Positions 6,108 through 24,200 of a DNA stretch of 32,479 nt are shown here, piece by piece. Source of the stretch: Discostella pseudostelligera (taxonomy: Eukaryota; Bacillariophyta; Thalassiosirophyceae; Thalassiosirales; Thalassiosiraceae); assembly GCA_036940085.1 (NCBI GenBank), contig JALLBK010000774.1:1-32479 (forward strand), given 5' to 3'. The translations under genes were made by a program, and so were the position numbers. The notes beneath the pieces were generated by a model. It searched no databases, was not told the DNA's origin, and saw nothing but the letters and a program-made list of their open reading frames with translations. Numbering within the stretch: the first letter of the stretch is position 1; each line of letters opens with the position of its first letter.

Positions 6108-7448
6108 TTGCGACGCGTCGCCACCACCACCAACCACCCCCTCCCCGACGAGGCATCAGCGCAGCAGGGCGAAGAGAGGGTCAAGAGAGAAGCAACGATG
6201 ATAATGTCTCTGGCGACAGGCAATCGTAGTGGCAGTGGTAGCGTCTTTGGCTATGGCAGCTGCATCCGCACGGCGTCAGCAGCGTCACCGTTGCGATCAT
6301 CTACTACTTGCTCACGGTGTCACATCATATGCAACACTGATCGACGAAGACGACGACAGGTTGGAAAACACATCCTTGGTAATTTTCATTCAACAATACT
6401 AATTCTATTGTCCTTGGCCGCGACGACGACGACGACGACGACGACGACAGCAATACCAGTAACATCATCCACCAGTAAATTGAAATATAATGTCGCCATG
6501 ATGAATAGTCACGTCAACAACAACGACAATAATAATAGCATAGGACGACGACTAAGAAGAAGGAGTAGGAATTGGAAGAGACGACGGATGATTCAGCCGC
6601 GACGTCCCATAATGGAAAGCAGTAGCGAACCTACGATGGAGATTGGCGAGGACGACAATGGCGCAACCATGGCAGCAGCATTCACTTCCACGGAAGAGGG
6701 GTTGAGTGGAGGAGGGAATAGTGGGTATGGCACCTACAAGAGTGGTAGCAATTATTATGCCAGTAGTAATGGTGGTGTCGGTGACGGCGGAGGTGGCTCC
6801 TCCTCCTCTTCGTCGTCGTACGGGGAAAGTTCCTCCTTTGGGAACAGCGCAATTGGTGGGTCATCCTCGCACGGTGGTGGTGGCGAAATCAGCTCTTCTT
6901 CCATCGGAGGTGGATCTTATTACTCTTCGTCTTCGGCGGGAGGTGACGCCATCACCTCTTCCTACTACGATAATGATGGATATTCTTCTTCCCGATACAA
7001 ATCCTCCTCCTCTACTACTAAATCCAAATTCGCGACATCACAACACAAGCCGCTACCCACCATTACCATATCCATCATTCCAGCCATCCTTTTCCTCCTA
7101 TTTCTTACCTTGGGTGGAATGCTCTTGACGGCACATCGAATGGAACACAATCCTGAGGGCTATTTCGCCAATTTTTGTCGTGTAGTACTCCACTCCATTA
7201 CCTGCTTTTCTGGACTACTGTACAATCTCTATCATGGACGATGGGGGGATATCGTTCAAAGAGCACTGGGAGACGAGGACGATGAAGAGGATTATACTGA
7301 TGAAGAGATGGAACGGATGAAATTACGACCGGGGATTGAACGTGCGTTGGATGTGGAGCATACCAAGGCATTACGACGAGTGGGGATTGAGATGGAGAAG
7401 ATAACGAGTACAAAGAAGTCGAAGACAAAAAGTAGTCGGGGAAGATGA
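6108..7448 (+). CDS. Ser/Gly/Tyr-rich transmembrane protein, unknown function
   Basis: 446 residues from the first ATG; 416 if translation begins at the ATG-ATA-ATG cluster at 6198, which follows a purine-rich leader and is as plausible. Order: hydrophobic stretch STILILLSLAA near residue 95-105, a Thr run encoded by an ACG microsatellite (about 6421-6447), an Arg-rich patch (RRLRRRSRNWKRRR), a long Ser/Gly/Tyr low-complexity region, a clear transmembrane helix TISIIPAILFLLFLTLGGML followed by RMEHNPEGYFANFCRVVLHS, then an acidic stretch DEDDEEDYTDEEMERMK and a Lys-rich tail. The Tyr-Gly-Ser-rich part resembles diatom cell-surface and wall-associated proteins in composition only. I do not recognise a family. 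The conserved part is probably the transmembrane region and the 90 residues after it. Confidence 0.7.
   Translation: MRRVATTTNHPLPDEASAQQGEERVKREATMIMSLATGNRSGSGSVFGYGSCIRTASAASPLRSSTTCSRCHIICNTDRRRRRQVGKHILGNFHSTILILLSLAATTTTTTTTTAIPVTSSTSKLKYNVAMMNSHVNNNDNNNSIGRRLRRRSRNWKRRRMIQPRRPIMESSSEPTMEIGEDDNGATMAAAFTSTEEGLSGGGNSGYGTYKSGSNYYASSNGGVGDGGGGSSSSSSSYGESSSFGNSAIGGSSSHGGGGEISSSSIGGGSYYSSSSAGGDAITSSYYDNDGYSSSRYKSSSSTTKSKFATSQHKPLPTITISIIPAILFLLFLTLGGMLLTAHRMEHNPEGYFANFCRVVLHSITCFSGLLYNLYHGRWGDIVQRALGDEDDEEDYTDEEMERMKLRPGIERALDVEHTKALRRVGIEMEKITSTKKSKTKSSRGR
6421..6448. repeat. ACG trinucleotide microsatellite (coding poly-Thr)
   Basis: Run of GAC/ACG units encoding consecutive Thr residues in the unknown transmembrane protein. 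A likely length-variable site. Confidence 0.85.
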
Positions 7449-17111: not shown

Positions 17112-18506
17112 TTAGAATCCAAAATCTCCATCATCAAAGCCATACTCATCGGCATCATCCCCACCCCCCTCACTATCACTATCGTCCCCACCATCCTTCC
17201 CATCACGTGCCACAGCATCCTCATAATCTCCCAACTGAACAAAGTCCACCTTCCATCGCAATATCCCGCCAATACCACCAAATCCCTTCACAAACTGCGT
17301 CCCCTCGCCACTACGATCAGTAACAAATTCCAACTTGCATCCATAATTCTTATAGTTATTGGCCAGCCATTCCACCATGGCCTCTTTTTCCAAGACTTCC
17401 AATTCGGCACCAGTGTCGGCATCACGAAAAAATGTATCATTCTTCTCCTGTTCTGGTGTGAGATACACAATCCGTTTCCCTTCGTCGCCCGACGACGACG
17501 ATGGTCGTAGTATGTATCGATTAATTTCAAGATTTTCCCAAACAATCAAATCTTCCACAGCCCCCAAATCCAATGCCTTTAGTGTATCCTCGACCATGAA
17601 GCAATACTTGCCAGTATCTTGACTAATTTCATCCATATACTTTTGCAATAATTTCTTCTCTTTCATAAGCTTGACATTTCCCAGGGTGTCGGCACTGAAT
17701 TCAATGGCTTGATTGAAGCCATTTTCGCCACCGTAGGAAATGTCAACCATTTTGATGACAATTTTGGCTAGACGAGGATCGAATAAATCACTGCGCATTA
17801 ATTCACTCTTGAAATCGGCCGATCCGGCCAAGACCAGGCCTTGAATGTTGGGCATCTGACCATTGGGAACGAATAGTTGCGTAGCAAGTTCCGCCACCTT
17901 ACGGACGTAATTGTGTCGTTTCTCAAGACGTAGACGTGCAAAACGCAAGGCCGATTGTCCACCCCTACCATGTTTTTTGGGTAAGTCGACCGAGAACTTG
18001 TGCAGTACCTCCCGTGCCGAACCCTGCACCGTGCCGTAGAGTGAACCGTTACCATCCATGACAATGAATCCAAATGCCTCATCGTCGATGAGGAGCTCAT
18101 TGAGATCTTCAGTATGGAACTTATTGTCACAGAGATAGAGTGAGGTATTGATTGGCTTGAATGGTTCAAAATCAATATTCACCTTCTTTTCCTTCCCCTC
18201 GTCGGTCATGACTGTGCCACAGTACATGACGAGGCCATTCTTGGGGCATTTGTTGTACAGCTTCAATCGTTGCTGTGTGCTAGTAATAGCACCCAAGACG
18301 GATAGACGATTTACGCGAGATTTGATGTTGGAGGCCGTGCCGTACTCGTCGGCTAACATTTTGGCGATTTGACTAATCTGTGTCCCCGGGGGAATGATGA
18401 GCGAGATCATGGAGGTGCCATTGCCCTTGGCGGCGGTGAGATTTTTGATGAGCTTTTTGACCTTGAAGATCTCGATTTGTTGGTCGGTCTCTTCTTCGGT
18501 TGGCAT
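17112..18506 (-). CDS. ETF1: Eukaryotic peptide chain release factor 1 (eRF1)
   Basis: 464 residues, single exon. All diagnostic motifs are present: [13 protein letters not shown] near residue 28, [13 protein letters not shown] with NIKS at 60-63, YLCDNKF (YxCxxxF) near 125, and [20 protein letters not shown] with the universally required GGQ near 183. The middle and C-terminal domains are full length, ending in a long acidic tail ([19 protein letters not shown]). Known: it recognises all three stop codons in the ribosomal A site and triggers peptide release with eRF3. Nothing in the stop-decoding motifs suggests a changed code, which matters for the adjacent TGA-containing gene. Divergent from that gene, 237 bp between starts. 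Confidence 0.97.
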
Positions 18507-18743
18507 GGTTGGAATTAATCTATTACTTTATTATGAAGGATGCTCTCTGGAGAGAATGATGAAATTGTTTTAGATTGAGAGACGAGCAATGATAATGTTG
18601 ACGACGATGAAGCTCGAGGCGCCGGCCCTTGCTCGATTGAATGAATGACGACTGACGACAATGCTGTGACTGTAAGNTCAACACCAATATCAACCACCAA
18701 CAACCCGTGCCGACCCCGGACCCCGGACCCCGCCGACGAGCCC
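18507..18743. other. Divergent promoter region of eRF1 and the TGA-containing oxidoreductase; contains an N
   Basis: 237 bp between starts. N at 18676 is a single ambiguous base; unlike the N at 1569 there is no flanking duplication. A CCCCGGA tandem (about 18713-18730) lies in the leader. Confidence 0.5.
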
Positions 18744-19829
18744 ATGGTCCGAATGGCAGCAGTAGCAGCCATCATCGTTATCAGCAGCCGCCGGAACACC
18801 ATCTTCGCTTCATGTTTTGCAACTCATCGTCCACTTTCATTTTCTACACAGGCAAATAGTAGTAGCATGTCGGCGTCTCCGGCTTCGTCTTCGGCTTCGA
18901 CGTCTTCGACGTCAGAAGCAGATCGACGCGTCATATCCATCGATATTGTCTCGGACACGTGAGCAGATGTGTGAAATCATGTCAAACTCATGTATTCTAC
19001 CTACATTCTCTCGTGCCTCATCGATTCTTTAATTTTTGTGTACAGAATCTGACCTTGGTGTTACATTGGCAAACGTCGGCTTGAACAAGCCCTCGCCATT
19101 GCCCATAAAACATTCCCCAAATTGACCTTTGATATCAAATGGCGTCCCTATGAATTACAACCATCTTTACCCAAGGGGAAGGGATATAACAAATTACAAT
19201 ACTATGAATCGAAATTTGGGAAGGAGTTGGTACGCAGTATGATCCCTCGAATGAAAGACGTGGCTAAGGAGTGTGGGATACAGATGGAATATGATGGGTG
19301 TGTGGGTAATACGCTGGATAGTCACGTGAGTGGGGTTATTAACTTCCTTGATTGCATCATTTACCTCTACCATCTTTGTAATATTTGGTGATTCCCAAAC
19401 CATTTGTGCAGCGTTTGATTTGGAAAGCACGTGAGGTAAGTCGGTTCGATTATTCAATCATTTACCCACACATCATCATGTCCACACATCTCGCGCTCAT
19501 AATGCGTTTTCGCTTCTCTTTAGGTGGGCGGATCGGAATTGCAAGACAAGGTCGTAGAGCGACTCTTTCGTGCCTACTTTGAAGAGAATCATTCTCTCGG
19601 CGAGCACTCCGTATTGGAAATGTGTGCCAAGGAGGCGGGCTTGTCCGACATGGAGCCTAACTTTCTATCCAACTCGGAGTTGGGTACTCGGGAGGTGATG
19701 CAGGAAATGCAGGATTATGGACGTGCATATCAGTGTTCCGGTGTGCCCATGTTCATTATTGATGGGAAGGTGAAGTTGAGTGGTGCACAAGAGCCCGATG
19801 CGTTTCTTCGCGTGTTTGGGAGGTTGTAA
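18744..19829 (+). CDS. DsbA/FrnE-type thiol oxidoreductase with TGA in the active site (predicted selenoprotein)
   Basis: Four exons: 18744-18958, 19046-19325, 19412-19435 (24 bp), 19524-19829; introns of 87, 86 and 88 bp, all GT-AG and phase-consistent; 274 residues. The first junction gives VSD-T-I then TGA (19050-19052) then PWCYIGKRRLEQAL. In this family (PF01323, 2-hydroxychromene-2-carboxylate isomerase/FrnE branch) that position is the first Cys of CPWC, so the codon is best read as selenocysteine (U74), giving a UxxC redox centre. Downstream exons are intact: NTLDSH-RLIWKARE, CSGVPMFIIDGK with the cis-Pro loop, and SGAQEPDAFLRVF. The N-terminus (MAAVAAIIVISSRRNTIFAS) is hydrophobic and basic, possibly an organelle presequence. 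A C-to-A error or a nonsense mutation is the alternative. Start uncertain: Met at 18744 or 18753. Confidence 0.8.
19050..19052 (+). other. In-frame TGA at active-site Cys position (predicted Sec codon)
   Basis: After splicing, the codons read ACA ATC TGA CCT TGG TGT, aligning as T-I-U-P-W-C with the family T-I-C-P-W-C. Codons on both sides and all later exons stay in frame. Confidence 0.7.
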
Positions 19830-19942
19830 ATCATCTGTGAAAGAAGGGTGCGTGCAGGGTAGTTGGGAGATTGCGACAAACCATGACTAGAAATGAGGGA
19901 CACGTTATTTGAACGAGAGAGGAAAGAAGATTGATGTTAGGA

Positions 19943-20003
19943 ATGACGAGCCCTATTGCAAATTACACATTCAAGCGAAAAGTGATAAGGAAAAGGCTCT
20001 GAT
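19943..20003 (+). promoter_or_regulatory. Weak SECIS-like hairpin candidate
   Basis: 114 bp after the stop: ATGA at 19943-19946, 13 bases, then AAA at 19960-19962 where the apical adenosines should be, and TGAT at 20000-20003. Stem GAGCC (19948-19952) pairs with GGCTC (19995-19999); an inner stem CTATTGC can pair with GTGATAAG if a 3'-side A-rich bulge is allowed. Spacing fits a eukaryotic SECIS but the bulge and the C/T mismatch beside the quartet do not. Low confidence. Confidence 0.2.
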
Positions 20004-20207
20004 GAAAAATGCATTGCTCCTTGACAGTTCTCGTCGCGACATCATGCTTTCATTTGTCACTGGGTTAATGGTATTAGAACAGATAATTCTTGTCTATTGG
20101 AAGAGTTCTTTTTCAAGTATCGTTAATCCTTTGCCCTTCGGCACATCGTCACCGTTTTGCGCATCATGTTGTTACAATAGTTGTGCGGGAGACAAATAGT
20201 GGCGACA

Positions 20208-20237
20208 TTTTGGCGGGAAATTCGTTTTAGCGGGAAA
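20208..20237 (+). promoter_or_regulatory. Pair of E2F-like sites upstream of the YchJ-like gene
   Basis: TTTTGGCGGGAAA at 20208-20220 and TTTTAGCGGGAAA at 20225-20237, same orientation, 17 bp apart. The first is a near-perfect E2F/DP consensus. Similar GGCGGGAA elements occur at 4102-4138, 5858-5867 (reverse) and 29116-29125 (reverse). Function inferred. Confidence 0.5.
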
Positions 20238-20401
20238 CAGTACTGATTCCGTACGTACGCTGAATTTTGAAATTAAAATTTGAAATTAGCTGGTATGCTT
20301 CTACGATGGAATGTTGTGTGTAGACTTTGTACTAGTTCATAGCATAGAACTCACTATCAAATAATCGGCTCCGCATCGCGCATCGCAACAAACCCAACAA
20401 C

Positions 20402-21166
20402 ATGCTTCAAGACAGGTCTTTACTCTTCGTATTTGCATTTATTTTAGTATCGTCGAAGGCAGTACAATTCGTCGATGGCTTCGCTGTGAGGAGGCCGATG
20501 ATCACCGTCACGGCTTCACCACAAACGATGCCATCCTCCTCTTCATTAGCTGCCAAGGGGGGAGGGAAGAACAAGTCGTCCAAACGGTCCGCCCAGACTA
20601 CAAAAGGATTTGGTTTGCCTCCACCAACGTTAGAAGATGTACTCGCCACCTTCAAAACGCGTATTCCGGAGGATGCCGATAACCAGCCTTGTCCGTGTGG
20701 AACGGGACAAACGTATGGTAGATGTTGTGGACCATTTCACCGTGGCGATCGCAAGTGCGCCACCATGACAGATGTATTGCGGTCGCGATATTCGGCATTT
20801 GCATGGAGAAATATCGAGTATGTTATGGACACAACGCATGAATCTTGTAGAGATTATCGAGAGGATCGTGTTGCTTGGGCAAACGATCTCCATCGAAAAG
20901 GCATGTTCGATGGCTTTGAATTTGAAAAGTTATCCGCGGGAGACGAGGAAATGGATCAAGAAAATGATAACGAGGGATACATTGAGTTCAAAGTTACATT
21001 CAGGGCACGACATGATGGAAAACACTCTGTTGCTGGCCAGGAGACGGTGATTTCTGAACGATCTCGATTTCTTCGTAATCCTACTGATGGAACTTGGAGT
21101 TATGCTAGTGGAGACGTACGATCAGATGTTGCTGGATTGGAAGGTGCAACTCTCAATGTTGGATAG
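20402..21166 (+). CDS. Plastid-targeted YchJ/UPF0225-like SEC-C motif protein
   Basis: 254 residues, single exon. Residues 1-26 form a signal peptide (SLLFVFAFILVSSKAV) with cleavage at VDG|FAVRRP, Phe27, the diatom plastid motif, followed by a basic Ser-rich transit region. The SEC-C zinc motif is at residues 97-109, C97-x-C99-x8-C108-C109 (PCPCGTGQTYGRCCGPFH), followed by the YchJ core: DVLRSRYSAFAWRNIEYVMD, a variable acidic insert, VTFRARHDG and the terminal SERSRFLR with TWSYASGDVR. Known: bacterial YchJ is an uncharacterised NTF2-like fold protein with one or two SEC-C motifs; here only the N-terminal one is seen. Role in the plastid unknown. Two E2F-like sites lie upstream. Confidence 0.88.
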   Translation: MLQDRSLLFVFAFILVSSKAVQFVDGFAVRRPMITVTASPQTMPSSSSLAAKGGGKNKSSKRSAQTTKGFGLPPPTLEDVLATFKTRIPEDADNQPCPCGTGQTYGRCCGPFHRGDRKCATMTDVLRSRYSAFAWRNIEYVMDTTHESCRDYREDRVAWANDLHRKGMFDGFEFEKLSAGDEEMDQENDNEGYIEFKVTFRARHDGKHSVAGQETVISERSRFLRNPTDGTWSYASGDVRSDVAGLEGATLNVG

Positions 21167-21288: not shown

Positions 21289-24200
21289 TCAACGATGCGC
21301 AAGTTTCCCATCGAGTCCGGACATTGCCTTCTTCTTTCCATCAGGAATCATAAACAATATCAACGGTTTGGTCTCGTTAATGTATGGCCTGTCAACCCTG
21401 TAAAATCCCCTCCTCTCCAGCTGGATAATGTCATTCTCTTTCAGTGTCTTCATCCCTACGTCGCCAAGGACCTCAGTCTCTGCCTGTGTATCGGGGTTGA
21501 TAAAGTCTTCAAACTGGTCATCTTCCTCGAGTTTCTCCTTCGAAATGAGGTTGTCGAATTCAAAGAGAGTAGTTGGGATGATGTTCTCGGGTGCATCGGC
21601 AAGCCAGGATAGTTTGCGCTTGGCAGCTTTGACATCACCATCGGGGATAAAGACACCCTCGAGTCCACCTTCAACTTTGGTGAGTTCGACGACTCCTGAA
21701 GGTGGTTCACAAATATGAACGAATTGTGAGCTGGCGAGATTGAGATAAGGGAGAAAATGATCAGAAGATTTCAAATGGAACCTACCCCAACGCGTCAAAA
21801 CAATCTTCTCTCCAACCTCCATCCCCTCTGTATCCACCTTCTCCAGCATCACCGTCTTCCCAATCCTCACCAATCGCTTCCCAAAGCTAGGATCTTTGGG
21901 CAAGTAATCCGTACTCAGATACTCAACACTGTCTCCCGCATTCGTCACCGTCAATACTACATGCTCCGTTTTATCAATGGCCATGAACCGCTTCGCGCGC
22001 TTGTCGATCTCCTTCTTATTCTCTGCCCAAAACTTACTCCACTCCATATTCACCACCCGTCGACTAGCTCCCTGGGAGCACATGAATCGTTTCAATGCAG
22101 AAATGTCAATGCCCCGACGGCTCACACCACGAATGGTGGGGAAGCGCGGATCATCCCATCCCGAAACACGACCAGTGTCAACAAACCAGGTCAGCTTGCG
22201 CTTGCTCATGACAGTGTACATGAAATTCATTCTGGCAAAGGTCTGGATGCGTACGCGGCGTAATCCTAATGCTTTTTGAATCCACATGAATTGGGCGTTC
22301 CTGCATCGTACACCAATGAAGTTAAGTAGGACGAGTGACAAAAACGAGTTATGGCAATGGAAGAAGGAAGGCACAGTTCATTGAATGAAAAAGAGTGTAT
22401 GGATGACTTACCGATCATCATATTCGGTAGTACGAAGTGCATGCGTAACGCCCTCAATCGCATCCACAATGGGGCATGCTAAATCGTACGTCGGATAGGC
22501 CTTGTACATGGTGCCACTCCTATGATGCGGAGTTGTATTCTGACGATACAACACCGGATCCCGTAATGTACCATTGTCGGAGGTCATGTCGATTTTGGCC
22601 CGGAGACACCATGCCTTTCCTTCTTCATTACCAGAACACATGAGTTGAAAGTATTTCAATGCGTCCTCGGGAGTTTGACCCCGATGCTTGGAATTTTGGC
22701 GTTCCATACGTTCCTTTTGCATTTGTTCTTGATTGGTATCGTCCATGTAGGCCAGACCATTTTCAATCATCCACAGTGCATACTGCTCAATAGTACGAAA
22801 GTAGTCGGATGTGAAGGTAATGATATCGGGTTTGACACCAATTTTCCCCAAATCCTCCACGATACTCGCTTGATATTCATCCTTTTCTTTACTGGGATTG
22901 GTATCATCAAATCGTACCACGAGGCGTCCCTTGTATCGACGTGCGTAGTAGTTTCCGAGCAATACCGCCTTGGCATGTCCAATGTGCAAGTAGCCACTGG
23001 GTTCGGGGGGGAAACGTGTCGTGACACGTCCCGGTGTAGCACCCTCGAGGTAACTCATTCCGGTCACCAGGGAAGGTAAGGATGATCCATACTCGAGCTG
23101 TATTTCCTCGTTTTTGGCCACGCCAATGGCAAGTTGCGATGCCTCCATCACGGCCGGATGGATGGATATTATGTCTATCCAACGGAGTGTAGGACAACCA
23201 TGTGGGAGGATCGAGGCAAGTTCCATTCGAGCTACATCCGAGGATGGAAATCCCAGCATGGCAAAGAGCGCAATGTCTGCCAAGGTTAACGAATATCCAA
23301 CAATATATGTCGAAGTAACGAGGATGGGATCCAATGTGCGTTGAATTGCCAGTGCCCGACGCGCCAATCCAAATTTGGATAGTGAGGATGCATAATCCAT
23401 CCATTGATCCATAATGGCAACATGTTCATCCGATGTTCCCCCCAAGAAGGAAAGGTTACTGTTGTTGCTGCTGCCCAGTGCCTGTTTGGCAATGAATCGA
23501 GCCATGGCCAAATCTCCACGAACTTCTCCATTCGTTGTTCCCGAGGGCAATCCCAAAGCACATCCACATCGGGTATGATCGCTAATCAATTCATAATCAA
23601 CAATGGTATTGCATAGGACGGCAGTGGTGAGGGCAACGACTGGTCGTTCCATGAGGGATACATTGGGATTGAATGCAATTTGATTTGGTTTTAGTTTGGA
23701 AGTTGCAGATGCAACGGGGGCTGTTCGAGTAGAAGACGGGAGGGTGGGCGTTGCACGAAGTGTAGTAGGAAGACCCTGAGCAGGAGCAGCGGCAGTACTA
23801 GTGACGGCTGATGAGGCAGTTGCTGCTTTCAATGCAGTCTTTTTGGCCTTGGCTTCTGCCTTCTTTGCGGCCTTTTTGGATGCGTTGGCTTTGGATAATA
23901 GGAGTAACATGAATCAACAATGAAAGCAACGTGAGATATGATTGAAGTGCACACACAAGCTGTCTACAGTGAAGCAATACGCCATGCCCATGCTCACCTT
24001 CGTTCGCCGTCCCAGGAGCTGCCGCCGCCTCCGCAGCAGCACCAGCAGCCTTCTTCTCCTTCTCCAACTTCTTCTTTTGGCTCTTTGTCAATGGTTCCTC
24101 CCACGGCTTGCCATCTACGCCCACACCGCCATTATTTTGGGCATACAATCGCTTCGCGTCGAGGAGTGCAGCCACGGCAGCAGAAATGGCATCGGCATCA

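Follow-up and report, generated by a model that had tools for sequence, protein, structure and literature searches.

FrnE/DsbA is an already published selenoprotein family, to which the gene described here adds one member. It is listed as 'FrnE (DsbA)' in SelenoDB 2.0 (PMC3965025), a selenocysteine (Sec)-containing DsbA is reported in Ciona and amphioxus (PMC2874816), Sec-FrnE is reported in the Mamiellophyceae (PMC6627142), and an algal DSBA family is counted among published selenoproteins (PMC7539508). As described in two of these sources, the upstream position of the DsbA CXXC motif is occupied by Sec instead of Cys (PMC3965025, PMC2874816), and the Ciona gene was misannotated, the part with the Sec-TGA being taken as UTR (PMC2874816). 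The present gene is similar in both respects. The sea squirt protein, however, belongs to an animal lineage, and it is likened here by description rather than by sequence. The Mamiellophyceae Sec-FrnE and the algal DSBA family are alike in being algal Sec forms of FrnE/DsbA (PMC6627142, PMC7539508). The text of these two sources on algal FrnE/DSBA, figures and supplements aside, describes no diatom FrnE sequence, SECIS element or gene structure, and the 2007 selenoprotein list of Thalassiosira pseudonana, in the part of that source available, does not name DsbA (PMC2375036). The FrnE/DsbA gene of the present contig was not met in the literature search, and databases and supplements may hold it.

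The best solved relative of the protein is FrnE of Deinococcus radiodurans (5cnw, E = 4e-22), followed by SCO1869, a putative DsbA oxidoreductase (E = 8.6e-15). In the available passages on the Deinococcus enzyme, the active site is 22-CXXC-25, an intermolecular disulfide Cys22–Cys244 is reported, and a C-terminal CxxxxC motif helps to recycle the protein (PMC8945050). The same passages give this motif as missing in FrnE of D. maricopensis and S. roseofulvus (PMC8945050).

The locus lies in a window of 32,479 nucleotides (the whole stretch of DNA analysed), which is contig C722 of a 23.0-Mb genome of 963 contigs. The genome is judged diatom-like from its nearest named relatives, which, among the best 120 of 2785 matches, come from Thalassiosira, Cyclotella, Cyclostephanos and Skeletonema. 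The gene comprises four exons and three GT-AG introns, with the following features:

18744..18958, + strand: exon 1, predicted to encode a presequence (with a possible second start at Met42) and the first beta strand
18959..19045, + strand: intron 1, gtgagc...acag, 87 nt, GT-AG
19046..19325, + strand: exon 2, starting just before the active site U-P-W-C-Y-I-G
19050..19052, + strand: in-frame TGA, proposed Sec74, the attacking residue of UPWC
19326..19411, + strand: intron 2, gtgagt...gcag, 86 nt, GT-AG
19412..19435, + strand: exon 3
19436..19523, + strand: intron 3, gtaagt...ttag, 88 nt, GT-AG
19524..19829, + strand: exon 4, containing cis-Pro248, with the stop TAA at 19827-19829
19623..19625, + strand: codon of Cys207, a clade-specific cysteine by alignment
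19734..19736, + strand: codon of Cys244, a clade-specific cysteine by alignment, four residues before the cis-Pro
19940..20003, + strand: weakly supported candidate SECIS core, GGAAUGAC-GAGCC ... AAA ... GGCUC-UGAU, starting 111 nt past the stop

The spliced frame is 825 nt long (274 codons plus the TAA stop) and has exactly one internal stop, the TGA at 19050-19052, in the context SDTI-U-PWCYIGKRRLE. With this TGA read as Cys, residues 66-268 match the Pfam DSBA domain (PF01323, E = 1.9e-33, 116.3 bits against a cut-off of 25.6). Opposite the TGA residue, FrnE has the first Cys of its CPWC motif (Cys22, counted along the 5cnw alignment). The active site reads UPWC, corresponding to the FrnE CP(W/F)C with its first Cys replaced by the TGA residue. 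The original prediction had proposed a splice at 18958/19046 that yields I-TGA-P-W-C-Y-I-G at the CPWC site of the family, with the remaining exons in frame and a conserved C-terminal SGAQ. Both the frame and the FrnE alignment agree with that splice, the 274 codons hold no further stop or frameshift, and SGAQ is common to the protein and 5cnw. The window protein thus resembles D. radiodurans FrnE in domain, position of the CPWC site and SGAQ, and differs in having the proposed Sec where that enzyme has Cys. It also lacks the C-terminal CxxxxC, an optional FrnE feature, and ends in FLRVFGRL.

Two neighbouring genes frame the locus. An eRF1 gene (17112-18506, minus strand; named by eye from TASNIKS and YxCxxxF) is placed head to head with the FrnE/DsbA gene, with 237 bp between them. 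Downstream, the product of the next gene (20402-21166, plus strand) is YchJ-like by eye and carries a SEC-C-like CPCGTG motif; despite its name, this motif has no relation to selenocysteine.

Homologues were compared as protein sequences only, in a set of the best 120 of 2785 matches. The motif CP[WF]C is present in 45 of these, one (P0013, from JGI) has WPWC, and 74 are without the motif. P0013 shows 3 differences from the window over 190 residues, starts at the residue corresponding to Met42, and has a W for each of the five TGA codons in this stretch, those in introns too; it is the same gene, unspliced, from a gene caller that takes TGA as W. It is very probably a second, non-identical sequence carrying the TGA, and a local sequencing error is unlikely because this near-identical sequence has W at all five TGA codons. 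P0002, from Thalassiosira sp. and marked as partial, has exactly PWCYIGKK as its first residues.

A tree was computed by a quick method (LG+G4) from 134 rows, namely 117 of the 120 listed homologues (P0013, P0024 and P0025 having been removed), 16 of 63 usable bacterial Sec rows (every fourth) and the window protein. One clade (SH-aLRT 99) unites the window protein with 71 of the 74 rows that lack the motif and contains no Cys row, among the best 120 of 2785 matches; P0111 is placed outside it. All members of the clade are presumably diatoms. None of its 71 relatives, again among the best 120 of 2785, has CP[WF]C. The Sec column is empty in 69 of them, and in the other two a foreign N-terminus puts I or H there; the record starts at the residue 122 column in 26 of the 71, at residue 79 in 13 and at residue 75, just past the Sec, in one. 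On the simplest reading, these protein records reflect a failure of gene callers at one TGA shared across the whole clade. These being protein records, a TGA in the relatives is presumed. The search proposed earlier for homologues with Cys or TGA at this codon recovered 45 Cys forms and P0013, with its probable TGA written as W, and it places a TGA in the clade only indirectly. The accompanying claim that a standard annotation would truncate or split the gene fits the records, as the lack of CPWC in the 71 listed clade relatives and the many starts downstream of the TGA suggest.

These record starts could also be taken at face value, with the TGA terminating translation and a product made from a downstream Met (for example, Met139), or with a variant splice that skips the active site. 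When splice pairs were tried at intron 1 (GT donors at 18860-19039, AG acceptors at 18960-19129, intron of at least 40 nt), only one, 18862 to 19089, avoided the TGA and kept an open frame, and it deletes the active site. Either product, however, would be without CXXC and without the first strand of the thioredoxin fold, and the PWCYIGK just past the TGA is conserved in P0002, which makes termination or variant splicing very improbable. Another account holds that the locus is a pseudogene, or an ordinary Cys gene with a one-base sequencing or assembly error. Single-base errors happen, the window contains two N, and the SECIS element is only a candidate, but P0013 keeps W at all five TGA codons despite three residue differences, the rest of the 274 codons is free of stops and frameshifts, the listed clade relatives are devoid of CPWC, and the genome holds Sec machinery. 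We regard such an error or decay as very improbable, and read the TGA as a Sec codon.

The organism very probably makes selenoproteins. The genome has a tRNA-Sec (77.9 bits against a cut-off of 47; called by ARAGORN as tRNA-SeC with anticodon tca), SecS (E = 9.1e-97) and a selenophosphate synthetase, SPS2, with one internal TGA in the context LKG-U-ACK. An internal TGA is also present in one of four GPx matches (NVACE-U-GLT), in two of three Rdx matches (SelW-like CGG-U and SelT-like CTS-U, named by eye) and in the single SelM/Sep15 match of the genome, which is SelM-like. No internal stop was found in the six MsrA and three AhpC-TSA_2 matches of the genome, so some families that have Sec in other algae do not show it in this genome. 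A selB/eEFSec profile returned 20 translation-GTPase matches, none above the cut-off, and the best two were recognised by eye as eEF1A and IF2.

TGA probably also serves as a normal stop codon, because the eRF1 of the window retains TASNIKS (and also YxCxxxF) and three of the seven long window frames, taken as genes by eye with introns not modelled, end in TGA. The same observations bear on the idea that TGA has been reassigned in this organism to an ordinary amino acid, for example Trp. A gene caller did read P0013 with TGA as W; against this stand the retained eRF1 motifs, the frames that terminate at TGA and the identity of the tRNA with anticodon TCA, which is tRNA-Sec. Such a reassignment is scarcely credible. 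The preferred reading, as in the original prediction, is that the TGA is decoded as Sec, and it is supported by tRNA-Sec, SecS, SPS2, the other TGA-containing genes, the W of P0013 and the CPWC-free clade. With a probability of roughly 0.92, judged from sequence, this nuclear gene of a diatom-like genome codes for a thiol-disulfide oxidoreductase of the FrnE/DsbA family that is a selenoprotein.

The only DSBA match of the genome outside the window lies on contig C23, at about 22,920-23,850 (locus L021, TGA near locus base 774). Its sequence VPVELVSDTL-TGA-CCC-AAT-GG|gtgagt, joined to C-TAC-ATT-GGA-AAG by a splice proposed by eye, reads SDTL-U-P-N-G-Y-I-G-K; its TGA aligns with that of the window gene, and it has no resolving Cys. 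Among the best 120 of 525 homologues, three have WPNGYIGK, one CPNGYIGK and one IPSGYIGK, and 115 are without the motif. About 70 nt past the stop there is a SECIS-like fold of -30.5 kcal/mol (AUGAC-GGA...UCC-UGAG; no shuffle control). By these features, the C23 gene looks like a second DsbA-family selenoprotein, one without a resolving cysteine.

The candidate SECIS core of the FrnE/DsbA gene was first seen by eye in the 3' region, ahead of the reading of control genes, and it falls within the range 19830-20400 proposed earlier for this element. SECIS elements are recognised by quartet and apical rules. At 19940-20003, a 5-bp helix stands in register with a UGAC/UGAU quartet, and an AAA follows 12 nt on. 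A strict SECIS rule, applied to both strands of the window, selects the candidate alone. When the 573-nt 3' region is shuffled, a site occurs in 8 of 5000 sequences (26 of 5000 if the AA/CC condition is dropped). As the rule was drawn up with the candidate already known, it is not an independent test; nor is it a validated detector, because it finds none of the five control Sec genes (no site in the six 3' regions of these genes and the second DsbA gene). A looser rule gives 11 window sites at -9 kcal/mol or below on both strands, of which four, the candidate included, have the form ATGAC...TGAT. Applied gene by gene, it finds a single site each in GPx and the FrnE/DsbA gene, an identical pair in SPS2, three sites in SelT and none in SelW and SelM; the 3' regions of the GPx- and SelM-like controls start at provisional points, their 3' exons being not fully defined.

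The stability of the candidate hairpin is ordinary (z = -1.12; 29 of 200 shuffles fold as well). Rfam gave no match in 18500-20900 at E up to 5, which tells little because no SECIS was found by it in the five control Sec loci either, where the only matches were sub-cut-off snoRNA, miRNA and lncRNA ones. The motif GAATGAC occurs within 300 nt past the stop in SPS2 and the SelW-like and SelT-like genes (three of five controls), and is absent from the 3' regions of the GPx- and SelM-like genes (as provisionally started) and of the second DsbA gene; its background is six occurrences in 64,958 window bases, counting both strands. A longer pattern, GGAATGACG-N22-52-YCTGAT, which was fitted to the FrnE/DsbA gene and two controls, has five sites in the genome (the SelW-like gene, SPS2 twice, the FrnE/DsbA gene and one apparently unrelated site), against one for its backward control. 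The apparently unrelated site (C95, L035) follows an ATPase-like gene, named by eye, has no matching helix and was taken as chance. Two further approaches were set aside, a first SECIS scanner (at least seven helix-II pairs, apical AA/CC), whose energies were dominated by unrelated hairpins, and a covariance model from six SECIS-like cores, for which the MAFFT alignment misplaced a 3' quartet. The candidate core resembles the SelW- and SPS2-like 3' regions, and 19940-20003 is a plausible SECIS.

Repeated cores were seen at two of the control genes. There are two copies of the SPS2 3' region, SECIS-like cores included, at C683:5564-5607 and 6441-6484 (minus strand), 877 bp apart, through duplication or an assembly effect. 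The SelT-like gene (C686, L012) has two tandem SECIS-like cores about 95 and 200 nt past the stop, both beginning TGAATGACGAGA.

Bacterial proteins carry the same residue and motif. The DNA pattern (I/V)-TGA-PWC(Y/F)-(I/V)G-K was found in 67 stretches (L039-L105) of GTDB contigs, mostly titled Betaproteobacteria or Burkholderiales, and in 64 of these an open frame of at least 150 residues runs from just before the TGA. These UPWC FrnE-like selenoproteins (for example, VSDVV-U-PWCFIGKR) differ from the window protein in their position in the tree: the 16 rows included form a separate clade (99) adjoining bacterial Cys forms, whereas the window clade is placed among eukaryotic Cys forms. Gene transfer from the bacterial UPWC selenoproteins was rejected, since the 16 rows stand apart from the eukaryotic ones. 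Because the bacterial Sec rows form their own clade beside bacterial Cys forms, Sec probably arose at this codon at least twice, with a diatom origin independent of the bacterial one. The tree is without Sec-FrnE of green algae or animals, and a Sec origin shared among eukaryotes is compatible with it.

A 3' UTR SECIS, for which 19940-20003 is the best candidate, would recruit Sec-tRNA along with SBP2/eEFSec and thereby allow UGA74 to be decoded as Sec. Sec74 would then attack a substrate disulfide, Cys77 would resolve the selenenylsulfide, and the enzyme would be recycled by a thioredoxin or glutathione system, possibly aided by Cys207 and Cys244. Among the relatives listed, Cys207 is present in 69 of 71 clade members, 1 of 45 Cys homologues and 1 of 16 bacterial Sec rows, and Cys244 in 65 of 71, 0 of 45 and 0 of 16, respectively. 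The cis-Pro loop had been noted as conserved, and cis-Pro248 is indeed found in all 71, all 45 and all 16 rows of these groups. The two cysteines possibly help recycling because the C-terminal CxxxxC of Deinococcus FrnE is absent, although such a role is a guess. A broader and tentative proposal, which we consider unlikely as a whole, is that FrnE of the diatom lineage exchanged Cys for Sec in an event separate from that in the bacterial UPWC proteins and gained C207 and C244 as an internal selenol-regenerating relay in place of CxxxxC, giving a distinct selenium-dependent variant alongside which the UPNG DsbA would work.

A well-supported Sec-FrnE gene with defined introns is thereby added for a diatom-like genome. 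The records of its relatives suggest that public annotation of Sec-FrnE breaks at the active-site codon, and, as all 71 clade relatives listed are without the motif, the catalytic part would escape surveys of thiol enzymes. Cys207 and Cys244, the additional conserved cysteines, offer a testable idea of how Sec-FrnE may be recycled.
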